A program made the translations under genes and the position numbers. From the NCBI RefSeq assembly GCF_029962485.1, contig NZ_CP073637.1, forward strand, positions 1,240,001 through 1,304,000: a DNA stretch of 64,000 bases. The letters run 5' to 3'. The notes below the pieces were generated by a model that was given only the letters and a program-made list of their open reading frames with translations, had not been told where the DNA came from and made no database searches. Shown here in pieces: positions 5,265 through 49,306 of this stretch. This stretch comes from Burkholderia cepacia. GTDB lineage: Bacteria > Pseudomonadota > Gammaproteobacteria > Burkholderiales > Burkholderiaceae. Within the stretch, counting starts at the first letter, position 1, and each line of letters begins with the position of its first letter.

Positions 5265-5391
5265 CGTTTTCGAAACATCGTTTCAAGAGTTTAACCGGCA
5301 ACGATGTTTCGCGCAGTCTCTCAGGTTCTAGCACGGCCCTCGGAATGGCTAGAACTTTTTTAGCGCCACGGTCTCCGTGGCGCTTTTTTTT
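5265..5391 (+). ncRNA. candidate small RNA: three hairpins ending in an intrinsic terminator
   Basis: No coding frame explains this stretch. It holds three successive stem-loops: CGAAACATCGTT (5271-5282) with AACGATGTTTCG (5300-5311), 12 perfect pairs; GTTCTAGC (5325-5332) with GCTAGAAC (5348-5355), 8 perfect pairs followed by a T-run; and the terminator stem AGCGCCACGG/CCGTGGCGCT (5362-5384) with T8. A possible promoter is TTGACT (5230-5235), 17 bp, AAGAAT (5253-5258), placing the 5' end near 5265. The length of about 127 nt and U-rich single-stranded segments fit an Hfq-type sRNA. It matches no RNA family I recognise; the exact 5' end is uncertain. Confidence 0.5.
5362..5391 (+). terminator. 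intrinsic terminator of the sRNA candidate
   Basis: AGCGCCACGG-TCT-CCGTGGCGCT: 10 perfect pairs, 3-nt loop, followed by eight T on the plus strand. The other strand lacks a T-tract, so it serves plus-strand transcription although no plus-strand protein gene precedes it. Confidence 0.8.
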
Positions 5392-9141: not shown

Positions 9142-9208
9142 GTGCGTGCTGAACTGGTGCGTGCTGCGAGTGGGGTGATGCGGCGTGGTGCGCGGTGGTG
9201 CGCCGCGA

Positions 9209-9225
9209 CGCACCGATCTGGCGCG
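9209..9225. promoter_or_regulatory. second, weaker NtrC-like site
   Basis: CGCACCGATCTGGCGCG matches the same arrangement GCACC-N5-GGYGC with a T-to-C change in the right half. It is placed just after the stop of the 111-residue gene and about 200 bp from the amt promoter. Confidence 0.35.
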
Positions 9226-33929: not shown

Positions 33930-36097
<2,168 letters not shown>

Positions 36098-36309
36098 AGC
36101 AGCGCACACGATACACCGGCTTGGCGGCGGTTTCAACCGGGAGCGGATCGGATGCCGCCTGGCGATCGCCGGATCGCCGCCGGCGAACCGGGCAGGGTGC
36201 AGTGCAGCAATCGCGGCTTCCTTGCGGCGTCCCGGCCAAGCCGGCACGCGTCGAGCGGTGCAGCATTCGCATCTTCAGTTCAGGCGTCTAAAATTTTTTT
36301 TGACATCGC

Positions 36310-46708: not shown

Positions 46709-47734
46709 TCAGGCTTTGCGCAATTGCAGCTCGGCGGCCGGCGGCGCAACCGTCGCGCCGTCGCGCACCGTATGCGGCAGGATCATCGATGTGCGTTCGA
46801 TCGCCGCACCGCCGATGCATTCGACGAGACGCTGCCACGCGTGGCGACCGATGTCGCGGTTCGGCGTCGCGACGCTCGCGAGCGGCGGTGCAAGCAGTTC
46901 ACCGATCGCGATCCCGTCGAAGCCGAGCACCGACAGGTCGTCCGGGATCGAGAAGCCGGCGCGGCGCAGGCCGCGCATCACGACCATCGCGAGCAGGTCG
47001 TTGCTGCAGAAGAGGGCGGTCGGGCGCGTTGCGTGCGCGGTCAGGTGCGCGAGCACGGCATCGGGTAGCTCGGGTGCGTTGAAGTCGACTTCGACCGGCG
47101 GCAGCGTGGCGACGCCGCTTTCCTCGAGTGCCTGCGCATAACCAAGGTGGCGCTGACGCGCGCGATCCGACGCGGCGAGCGAGCCGGCCAGCATCAGCAC
47201 GCGGCGGTGACCGCGCGCGGTCAGCATCCGCACGCCGTCATATGCGGCGCTGCGGTTGTCGACCGACACCGACGGGCGGCGCTGTGTGTCGTTGTGCATC
47301 AGCACGTAGTGCGGGCCGTCGCGGTCGAGCATGTCGAGCAGCGGGTGCGTGTCCGCATCGGCGACGGTGAGGATCAGCCCTTCGACGCGCTGCTCGCGCA
47401 GCGTCTCGATCGCGTGACGCTCGCGCGCCGCGTCGTACTCGGTCGTCATCAGGATCAGCTTGAAGCCGGCCGCGGTCGCGAGCTCGTCGATGCCTTGCAG
47501 GCAGTCGGCGAACACGGGGTTCGACAGTGTCGGCAGGACGACGCCGACGAGCCGCGTGCGCTCGCCGCGCAGTTGCCGGCCGAGCGGGCTCGGGCGGAAC
47601 TGCAGCGTATCGATCGCTGTGCGGATCGTTTGCAGCGTGGCGGGGCTGACGGTATGCGGTGCATTGATCGCGCGCGAAACGGTGGCGATCGAGAAGCCCG
47701 CGAGGGCAGCGACATCCTTGATGGTCGAGGTCAT
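46709..47734 (-). CDS. LacI-family repressor of the ABC/phosphodiesterase operon
   Basis: 341 residues from ATG 47734. HTH and hinge TIKDVAALAGFSIATVSRAINAPHTVSPATLQ (4-35), then the periplasmic-binding-like effector domain (RLVGVVLPTLSNPVFADCLQGI, CSNDLLAMVVMRGLRRAGF, DDLSVLGFDGIAIGELL). A LacI-type operator pair lies right upstream, so it likely represses itself and the downstream importer until a ligand related to the transported compound appears. Confidence 0.93.
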   Translation of the reverse strand: MTSTIKDVAALAGFSIATVSRAINAPHTVSPATLQTIRTAIDTLQFRPSPLGRQLRGERTRLVGVVLPTLSNPVFADCLQGIDELATAAGFKLILMTTEYDAARERHAIETLREQRVEGLILTVADADTHPLLDMLDRDGPHYVLMHNDTQRRPSVSVDNRSAAYDGVRMLTARGHRRVLMLAGSLAASDRARQRHLGYAQALEESGVATLPPVEVDFNAPELPDAVLAHLTAHATRPTALFCSNDLLAMVVMRGLRRAGFSIPDDLSVLGFDGIAIGELLAPPLASVATPNRDIGRHAWQRLVECIGGAAIERTSMILPHTVRDGATVAPPAAELQLRKA

Positions 47735-47749
47735 GAAGTAGCGCGATGT

Positions 47750-47784
47750 AAACGTTTTCGGCGAGGAAATTATCGAAAACGTTT
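47750..47784. promoter_or_regulatory. paired LacI-family operators
   Basis: AAACGTTTTCG (47750-47760) and CGAAAACGTTT (47774-47784) are exact inverted copies separated by 13 bp; each contains the palindromic core AAACGTTT with the central CG typical of LacI/PurR-like operators. They cover the region just before the regulator start. Confidence 0.75.
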
Positions 47785-48014
47785 GTGACTTCGCGATGAC
47801 GCAAGCGACGCTTGTTTCGCAAAAAGCACGATACAAACGTCAGACGGTTGGGGCCGTCGGACGACGCGGGCTCGATTGTATCGGGGATGTTGCGGCGCGG
47901 GAGGAAATGGGTGGATGTATCGTGTCGGTGGTGATGACACGCGCCGGACGCGTGGGGCGCGGCGGAATAAGGGAACGCATGCGCAAGCAATGGTAGAATC
48001 GCGTCCGCCCTCTT

Positions 48015-48349
48015 GCCGGGGTGATGAAATTGGTAAACATAGCGGACTTAAACGATTGAGTGCCCGGTCGGAAACGGTCGGTGCAGAACCCTTCAAATTC
48101 GGTGAAACCCCTGATGCGCGCATCGAGGCAACGCCGAGCCAAGCCTCGCGGTTTTCGCGAGGAAGGTGTAGAGACTAGACGGGGGGCGCCTAAGGCGCAC
48201 GGGCAGCGGTTACGCCCGCGCGCGACGGTGAAGGCATAGTCCAGCGCACGAACGGCATCGCTTACGCGACGCCGGCTTTGAAAGAAGCAGTGTGACGAAA
48301 ATCCGCCGCCTTAACTGGCTTGCCGGTTCAAGTCCGGTCCCCGGCACCA
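48015..48349 (+). tRNA. tRNA-Leu(UAA) interrupted by a group I intron
   Basis: 5' exon 48015-48049 and 3' exon 48298-48349 join to an 87-nt class II tRNA. Acceptor GCCGGGG pairs with CCCCGGC; D-stem ATG/CAT; anticodon stem GCGGA/TCCGC with loop CTTAAAA gives anticodon TAA; T-arm CCGGTTCAAGTCCGG; CCA is encoded. The split falls between anticodon positions 34 and 35, as in cyanobacterial and plastid tRNA-Leu(UAA). A TAGAAT -10-like element (47994-47999) precedes it. Likely the cell's decoder of UUA, so splicing would be important. Confidence 0.95.
48050..48297 (+). ncRNA. group I self-splicing intron in tRNA-Leu(UAA), IC3-like
   Basis: 248 nt. Conserved core elements in order: P in TTCAAATTCGGTGAAACC (about 48092-48109), Q in GGCAACGCCGAGCCAAGCC (48127-48145), R in AAGGTGTAGAGACTAGACGG (about 48163-48182) and S in AAGGCATAGTCCA (48231-48243). 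R GACTA pairs with S TAGTC to form P7. The 5' exon ends in ACTT, which pairs with GAGT (48059-48062) leaving the U-G at the splice site. A P9-like hairpin GCTT-TGAAAG-AAGC precedes the terminal G (48297). No homing endonuclease is encoded. Confidence 0.93.
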
Positions 48350-48382: not shown

Positions 48383-48418
48383 AAAACCCGCGAGAAATAA
48401 AGCGCTCGCGGGTTTTTT
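48383..48418 (+). terminator. intrinsic terminator of tRNA-Leu
   Basis: AAAACCCGCGAG and CTCGCGGGTTTT form 12 pairs around a 10-nt loop, ending in T6. 34 bp after the tRNA. The remaining 260 bp to the next gene show only the likely promoter region of the flavin-reductase-like gene. Confidence 0.9.
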
Positions 48419-48679
48419 GTTTGTACGGCGCCTGGATTCGCGCATGTGCAGAGCGTCGGGCCGTCGCCCCGTCATTCAACGCATGGTATCGGCGTGCTGG
48501 TCGCTCGACCTGCCCGAGGGCGCTTCGCGTTCATCGATATTCCCTTGCCACGTCGCTGCGACGAAATCAACGCCATGTGATACTGGCGCGCACGTCGTAC
48601 CGGACGCCTCGCCGTGATCCGCACACGCGCTCTCGCCGATAGACTTCAACGCAATTTGCTTCTCGCCAGACTCACTGTC

Positions 48680-49306
48680 ATGACCGACTCGACCTATCAC
48701 TATTACGAACCGTCGCAAGGCCACGGCTTGCCGCACGATCCCTTGAATGCGATCGTCGGCCCGCGGCCGATCGGCTGGATCTCATCCCGCGGCAGCGACG
48801 GCACGGTCAACCTCGCGCCCTACAGCTTCTTCAACGCATTCAACTACCGGCCGCCGATCATCGGCTTTTCGAGCACCGCCGCCAAGGACAGCCTGCGCAA
48901 CGTGCAGGAGACCGGCGAGTTCGTCTGGAACCTCGCGACGCGCGAACTTGCAGAGCGGATGAACCAGACGTGCGCCGCGGTGCCGTACGACGTGGACGAG
49001 TTCGAACTCGGCGGCCTGACCGCCGTGCCGTCGCGCCTGGTCGACGTGCCGCGCGTCGCGGAAAGCGGCGTCAACTTCGAATGCAAGGTGACCGACGTGA
49101 TTCGCCTGCGCGATCACCATGGCGTGGAAACGCCGGCGTCGCTCGTACTGGGCGAGGTCGTCGCGATTCATATCCGGAAGGATCTGTTGAAGGACGGCAT
49201 CTTCGACACGTTCGGTGCGGGCATCATTCTTCGCGCGGGCGGCCCGTCGGCCTATGTGCACGTCACACCCGACAGCCGTTTCGACCTCTTTCGCCCCGAC
49301 GCATGA
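48680..49306 (+). CDS. flavin reductase-like (FMN-binding split barrel) protein
   Basis: 208 residues from ATG 48680. Flavin_Reduct domain: NAIVGPRPIGWISSRGSDGTVNLAPYSFFNAFNYRPPIIGFSS near the start, then NVQETGEFVWNLATREL and LVLGEVVAIHIRKDLL. Binds FMN; may act as an NAD(P)H:flavin oxidoreductase or a related enzyme. Substrate unknown; monocistronic and followed by a strong terminator. Confidence 0.88.
   Translation: MTDSTYHYYEPSQGHGLPHDPLNAIVGPRPIGWISSRGSDGTVNLAPYSFFNAFNYRPPIIGFSSTAAKDSLRNVQETGEFVWNLATRELAERMNQTCAAVPYDVDEFELGGLTAVPSRLVDVPRVAESGVNFECKVTDVIRLRDHHGVETPASLVLGEVVAIHIRKDLLKDGIFDTFGAGIILRAGGPSAYVHVTPDSRFDLFRPDA

Follow-up and report, generated by a model that had tools for sequence, protein, structure and literature searches.

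The window analysed here, a 64,000-nt stretch of the Burkholderia cepacia genome, contains a tRNA-Leu(UAA) gene at 48015-48349 on the plus strand that is interrupted by a 248-nt group I intron at 48050-48297, between U34 and A35 of the anticodon. ARAGORN finds no tRNA in the window without introns; with introns allowed, it returns tRNA-Leu(taa) with a 248-nt intron at exactly 48015-48349. The joined exons form an 87-nt tRNA-Leu that has the anticodon loop CUUAAAA and all of the tRNA-Leu(UAA) features, including a cloverleaf, a long variable arm, the anticodon UAA, A73 and an encoded CCA. Where is the precursor cut? Four placements of the cut generate the identical mature loop, and only the U34/A35 cut gives the intron a terminal G. 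This last intron base (G283 of the gene) is invariant in the 30 aligned rows described below. A first-pass annotation of the sequence had proposed two exons that rejoin to a tRNA-Leu across a U34/A35 break; ARAGORN in intron mode and the sequence agree on this point, and the reading as a betaproteobacterial tRNA-Leu(UAA) gene interrupted by a group I intron is confirmed at the level of sequence analysis. The features of the locus and two further RNA elements of the window are listed below.

5314-5391: Burkholderia ncS54 sRNA (Rfam default)
35986-36102, minus strand: TPP riboswitch (Rfam default)
46709-47836, minus strand: LacI-family regulator, upstream (Pfam; the ORF may start too early)
48015-48049, plus strand: 5' exon with the acceptor 5' strand, D arm, anticodon stem 5' strand, C32, U33 and U34 (ARAGORN intron mode, sequence)
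48050-48297, plus strand: group I intron, 248 nt, ending in G (ARAGORN intron mode, Rfam match, covariation)
48298-48349, plus strand: 3' exon with A35, A36, anticodon stem 3' strand, variable arm, T arm, acceptor and CCA (ARAGORN intron mode, comparison with intact alleles)
48384-48418, plus strand: possible intrinsic terminator with an 11-bp stem, a 10-nt loop and a T run (by eye)
48614-49306, plus strand: flavin-reductase-like protein, downstream (Pfam)

A promoter and terminator scan returned none, and the loop that it allows is shorter than the 10-nt loop of the possible terminator. No ORF of at least 80 aa in the ORF list is contained in the intron, and the ORFs that overlap it extend outside. 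Given its length and the lack of such an internal ORF, the intron is not classed as a homing intron.

Ribozyme architecture and detection

The Rfam group I model RF00028 matches 48040-48265 with 35.2 bits (E 2.4e-7 in the region, 7.7e-7 genome-wide), and this is the single group I intron detected in the whole genome. The covariance-model search that had been suggested as a check thus yields a match, although its score falls under the RF00028 gathering score of 50 bits, and a default Rfam scan therefore overlooks the intron. The lack of a group I model match, which the first-pass annotation had named as refuting its reading, applies only narrowly, with respect to this cut-off. Above the default cut-offs, Rfam reports only the ncS54 sRNA and the TPP riboswitch in the window. 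Likewise, the default scan gives no match in 20 loci of the split-tRNA kind, the window's own included; at E 0.01, 16 of the same 20 loci match RF00028, one of them above 50 bits. The warning that gene finders may drop this tRNA thus proves accurate for ARAGORN and Rfam at their default settings. The ARAGORN labels of split tRNAs are also often off by one or two bases, and L093 (labelled 'Stop') and L216 and L225-L230 ('Phe' or 'Ser') were re-read as Leu(UAA) from the motif GACTT/...G/AAAAT[CT]. Any codon study or essential-gene screen based on default ARAGORN and Rfam scans, which overlook the split tRNA, would have a blind spot here.

Minimum free energy folding does not set the precursor apart from shuffled sequences (z -1.12), and a covariation test was used instead. 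The alignment comprises 30 split Leu(UAA) genes from the genus and its relatives, hand-picked from 50 representatives (<93% mutual identity) of 106 aligned genes, with the resistance-linked split gene described below excluded. The structure was named by hand and consists of 78 pairs in P1, P2, P3, P4, P5, P6, P6a, P7, P8, P9.0, P9, P9b and the cloverleaf. Its principal helices, all on the plus strand, are located as follows.

48046-48061: P1, exon ACUU (48046-48049) with the internal guide GAGU (48058-48061), U.G at the cut
48062-48084: P2 hairpin with a GAAA tetraloop (compensatory change in 8/9 pairs)
48089-48186: P3, 48089-48094 with 48181-48186 (paired in 30/30 rows; compensatory change in 2/6 pairs)
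48099-48137: P4, 48099-48104 with 48132-48137, enclosing the P5 hairpin (covariation test)
48138-48167: P6, 48138-48140 with 48165-48167, enclosing P6a (covariation test)
48173-48241: P7, the expected guanosine site, 48173-48177 with 48237-48241, pseudoknotted with P3 (paired in 30/30 rows)
48187-48230: P8, 48187-48190 with 48227-48230 (covariation test)
48245-48294: P9.0 extension, 48245-48249 with 48290-48294, around P9 and P9b (covariation test)

Paired bases occupy 98.0% of the pair cells, compared with 90.6% in shuffles and 33-44% when the partners are slid by 1-3 columns, a sliding control that is biased in favor of the structure because the structure was taken from the window's own sequence. 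Compensatory change is observed over the 30 genes in 39 of the 78 pairs, including the P3/P7 pseudoknot, and none of 500 shuffles attains any of the five measures of the test. All of the P3 and P7 pairs are formed in every row, with covariation in P3, P7 and P8; in three relatives, P7 exchanges C-G/U-A for G-C/C-G and keeps its pairing. In P1, the U.G, U-A and C-G pairs are formed in 30/30 rows and the fourth pair in 26/30, and gene pair 89-119 in the P4 region is unformed in 5/30. The P, Q, R and S core elements, the P7 pairing, the U-G at the 5' splice site and the terminal G that the first-pass annotation had recognized are all present in the sequence, and its paired D-stem changes (ATG/CAT) reappear as covariation of the D-stem AUG/CAU (A-U in 26 rows, G-C in 4). 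The structure is read as having a short P5 without P5abc, a tRNA host and no ORF in the intron, which makes the intron a candidate member of subgroup IC3.

Distribution and descent of the intron

A survey of the genus had been proposed, and the intron proves to be present in 65 of 65 genomes, each of which matches the gene over 335/335 positions with 82-100% identity. Each of the 66 loci taken from these genomes, one of which was fetched twice, receives a split Leu(UAA) call from ARAGORN. In the named collection, the gene stretch matches 19 records, all Burkholderia, with a split call by ARAGORN in 18 of the 19 and Burkholderia sp. BCC1644 (98.5%) as the nearest gene. Phage records gave no match.

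Related genera have either the intron form or an uninterrupted gene for almost the same tRNA. Ten intact rows, from eight genomes and among the best matches, agree with the tRNA predicted after splicing throughout the anticodon arm, and their only differences from it lie in the variable loop and, for one row, at the 3' end. Across intact matches as a whole, identity to the spliced tRNA is 90-98%. The two forms were counted in a family sample of 299 genomes, where 'intact' denotes a match to the spliced tRNA at E 1e-25 or better, only the genomes listed are counted and anticodons were read for those intact matches that were fetched. The window's genus (g1) has the intron in 41/41 genomes and no intact gene, and the intron is also present in 11/11 genomes of g25, 3/3 of g13 and 8/8 of g8. 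All 40 genomes of g10 are intact. Mixed genera are g11 (3 intron, 28 intact, 1 unresolved) and g20 (22 intron, 16 intact and, among the genomes listed, none with both). The counts exclude g3, g12, g16, g24 and other genera whose patterns are sparser, more distant or unresolved.

The intron tree was built from 67 rows of a larger set of 139, whose own tree was set aside for its many long branches. The 14 g1 rows form one clade (97/89), and a single clade is not rejected for the nine g20 rows or the seven g25 rows (p-AU 0.46 and 0.48). Given that genera carry the intron or the intact form and that the tree largely follows genus, vertical descent with losses would fit better than repeated gain, with the deep forks of the intron tree open. 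We thus propose that the intron may have descended mostly vertically in this part of the family and undergone repeated clean losses. Many lateral gains in related genera, rather than one gain with losses, would be an unlikely alternative. The mixed presence within g11, g15 and g20 would be expected from such gains, as would related introns in several tRNAs, and the open deep forks leave room for them; however, the intron tree is mostly ordered by genus, one-clade g20 or g25 costs nothing significant, and the upstream neighbor recurs across the genus. The upstream 1 kb matches over at least 600 nt in 52 of the 66 genus loci (any match in 57), and the downstream 1 kb matches over at least 700 nt in 17 (any match in 30, some of only 43-175 nt), the window's own locus being counted in both cases. 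On sequence comparison, the LacI side is the better-conserved flank, and the downstream side differs between species. Since sister genera carry either form of nearly the same tRNA, they allow a direct test of how a bacterial group I intron is gained and lost and of what it costs.

One locus of the genus (L166, genome G035) contains a second partial copy of the gene at 9147-9218 that corresponds to gene positions 258-329 (86%) and lies on the LacI side, ~7 kb from the intact gene. Genes for a thiolase, an AMP-binding protein and a DUF5938 protein separate the split-gene remnant from the complete copy, an arrangement that seems to point to replacement or displacement of the locus. An integrase island was considered at this locus; 10 of the 20 listed ORFs were scanned and gave the thiolase, the AMP-binding enzyme and DUF5938 but no integrase, and the locus is therefore not named as such.

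Decoding of UUA and splicing

Which tRNA reads UUA in this genome? The three contigs (7.7 Mb) contain 65 tRNA matches to RF00005, the matches for which anticodons were read, and no other UAA tRNA is found among the 65; ARAGORN on the fetched loci assigns the leucine anticodons CAG (three), CAA, UAG and GAG (two). A pattern for the intact Leu(UAA) gene, which could overlook a divergent copy, has 0 occurrences in this genome vs 1 in each of three genomes with an intact gene. A pattern of nine bases from the anticodon loop lacked the specificity to be informative. Neither the anticodons nor the intact-gene pattern thus reveals a second intact tRNA-Leu(UAA), which, together with no spliced product from this locus, the first-pass annotation had named as capable of overturning its reading. 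As far as searched, the split gene appears to be the only UUA-reading tRNA gene in the genome. Human and plant pathogens are among the members of the genus, which as a whole seems to rely on a ribozyme for the only UUA-reading tRNA found.

UUA is very rare, accounting for 14 of 100,496 codons and occurring in 12 of 271 called genes (about 4%) in a 464-kb sample, in which genes were called by a custom script rather than a standard gene finder, starts were set by coding score and atypical genes may be absent. An initial count of 28 UUA codons in 22/271 genes was inflated by too-early starts. The UUA codons of alaS, glnS and queA precede the likely true start and were discarded; that of recG precedes the start of the family match, and recG is still within the 14-codon count. 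No clear essential gene with UUA was found in the ten families looked up. The first-pass annotation had held splicing to be essential if this is the only UUA decoder; the gene is the sole UAA tRNA found, but essentiality is an inference and, given the rarity of UUA and the lack of a clear essential UUA gene in those families, we do not claim it. In Streptomyces, the corresponding UUA-reading tRNA is dispensable.

The best indirect sign of good splicing by this type of intron is presumably provided by Ca. Vallotia, an adelgid symbiont, in which the split tRNA is located on a 66-kb plasmid (L094:5000-5352) with rpsU and thiC nearby. Five plasmid CDSs of Ca. Vallotia contain 34 UUA among 1,437 codons, three of them in rpsU, and the intact-gene pattern is absent from four g8 genomes of 1.1-1.2 Mb that are taken, by inference, as Vallotia, three of them on the basis of identical contig positions. 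As UUA is frequent and no intact copy is found by pattern, splicing presumably works there.

The locus is thus very probably a functional tRNA-Leu(UAA) gene whose small group I intron is of the kind seen in bacterial tRNAs (IC3-like) and lacks a homing endonuclease gene, as argued by the covariation, the RF00028 match, the presence in 65/65 genomes, the lack of another UAA tRNA among those found and the intact alleles. In the mechanism that we propose, the precursor would be transcribed, and guanosine bound in P7 would attack after U34, at the U.G of P1. The freed U34 would then join A35 after the terminal G, and the spliced tRNA would, after processing and charging, decode UUA (and UUG).

Would the ribozyme suffice in the cell? 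According to PMC7717549, group I introns in the cell presumably rely in part on protein co-factors, and a related tRNA intron nonetheless self-splices in vitro. We consider it somewhat improbable that splicing of the Burkholderia intron is limited in vivo, with a host protein needed because the ribozyme alone is insufficient.

Far less probable is regulated splicing that gates the few genes with UUA codons, in the manner of bldA of Streptomyces, which gates the expression of UUA-codon genes. Group I splicing uses guanosine, and a guanosine-dependent, ribozyme-gated switch could in principle transmit the growth state through splicing and the tRNA to the expression of UUA genes in GC-rich Burkholderia. 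Such a switch, to which we assign a very low probability, would be in keeping with a single UAA tRNA found and with UUA in only 12 of the 271 sampled genes, but sister genera live without the intron and Vallotia has it despite frequent UUA. Least probable of all is a dying relic that no longer splices while UUA is read otherwise, because compensatory changes throughout the ribozyme and cloverleaf, the presence in every genus genome and the failure to find a replacement UAA tRNA in the genome outweigh the argument that the loss of so rarely used a tRNA might be tolerated.

Related introns in other tRNAs and on plasmids

Bacterial tRNAs are well-established hosts of group I introns, with cases in cyanobacteria, alphaproteobacteria and betaproteobacteria, and cyanobacteria and plastids share one common intron site (PMC4033280). 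Bacterial tRNA introns are thus known, and what is notable here is that the intron is genus-wide, resides in the only UUA decoder found and is overlooked by default scans. The cyanobacterial and plastid tRNA-Leu(UAA) intron is inserted at U34/A35 and interrupts the same tRNA as the Burkholderia intron, whose host is in contrast a betaproteobacterium. The Azoarcus tRNA-Ile(CAU) intron (IC3) is, as here, a betaproteobacterial tRNA intron, and its P, Q, R and S core is nearly that of the window intron; its tRNA and splice position differ. Alphaproteobacterial tRNA-Arg(CCU) introns also split an unannotated tRNA, and one of them, BbgpI of Bartonella bacilliformis, splices both in vivo and in vitro (PMC7717549). 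However, the Arg(CCU) loci that we opened are cut after U36 with a UUGGG-like guide, unlike the U34 cut and GAG guide of the window gene. In the same host genus, tRNA-Ile2 introns have been described in Burkholderia, as well as in Acidovorax, and were overlooked by a tRNA finder not built for group I introns; this is another tRNA, and Leu(UAA) is absent from the passage concerned (PMC8450103). No report of a tRNA-Leu(UAA) intron in Burkholderia was found in the open-access literature searched, and we do not claim that the intron is unpublished.

How widespread are related introns? With a core model derived from 22 introns, matches are obtained in 69 of 369 class-sample genomes and 27 of 299 phylum-sample genomes, two samples that share the window's genome and a few others. 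Together with the 65/65 of the genus, these counts make the first-pass wording 'only sporadically in proteobacteria' too weak. Besides the window's own locus, 29 class-sample and 27 phylum-sample loci were opened; after re-reading of the boundaries, 19 and 12, respectively, are Leu(UAA), two and one have no tRNA, and the remainder includes calls of Arg(CCU), Arg(UCU), CAU (Ile2-type), Ser, Thr and Leu(CAA). The presence of such introns in further tRNAs, and on plasmids of enteric bacteria, would call for routes other than vertical descent.

In the Thr(UGU), Arg(UCU) and Leu(UAA) introns, the cut is read after position 34 and adjoins CUU. The tRNA-Thr(UGU) introns (CUU/GUAA) are found in one g20 genome and one genome of the window's genus (L148:896-1179 and L149:959-1243), and the tRNA-Arg(UCU) introns (CUU/CUAA) in L212 and L213. 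Second group I introns occur within the genus in a tRNA-Arg(CCU) of G059 and a CAU tRNA of G041 (L150, L151). A tRNA-Leu(CAA) with an intron after C34 is observed in L126, L127, L128, L143, L144, L145 and L187, and the predicted 5' splice-site pair of these introns is C-G instead of the usual U.G. In the intron tree, the seven introns form a single clade (97/96) next to a different type of Leu(UAA) intron, and three g8 genomes (L126-L128) have the Leu(CAA) intron plus a Leu(UAA) intron.

Plasmids also carry such genes. Plasmid pBB1 of Cupriavidus necator N-1 (L096:3001-3178) has apparently only the 5' part of a related tRNA-Leu with its intron. Complete tRNA-Leu(UAA) genes with a group I intron are located at L287:3501-3799 (the same in L288, L289 and L290), L093:3990-4287 and L097:2990-3289. 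All checked pairs of this split tRNA are formed, and of 1280 plasmid records with a match, 1257 extend over at least 80% of the gene. It is present in 624 of 5,426 complete E. coli genomes, at 81 places on chromosomes and 589 on plasmids, and no annotated feature lies under it in the eight E. coli rows listed. Its nearest relative in the set, L216, belongs to another class and is 85.6% identical, a likeness limited to the tRNA gene. In the records opened, this related split tRNA of enteric bacteria stands beside an aminoglycoside resistance gene: an AAA-ATPase gene, presumably tmrB-like, and aac(3)-IId adjoin it in four records (two from E. coli), and aac(3)-II-type genes are nearby in L093 and L097.
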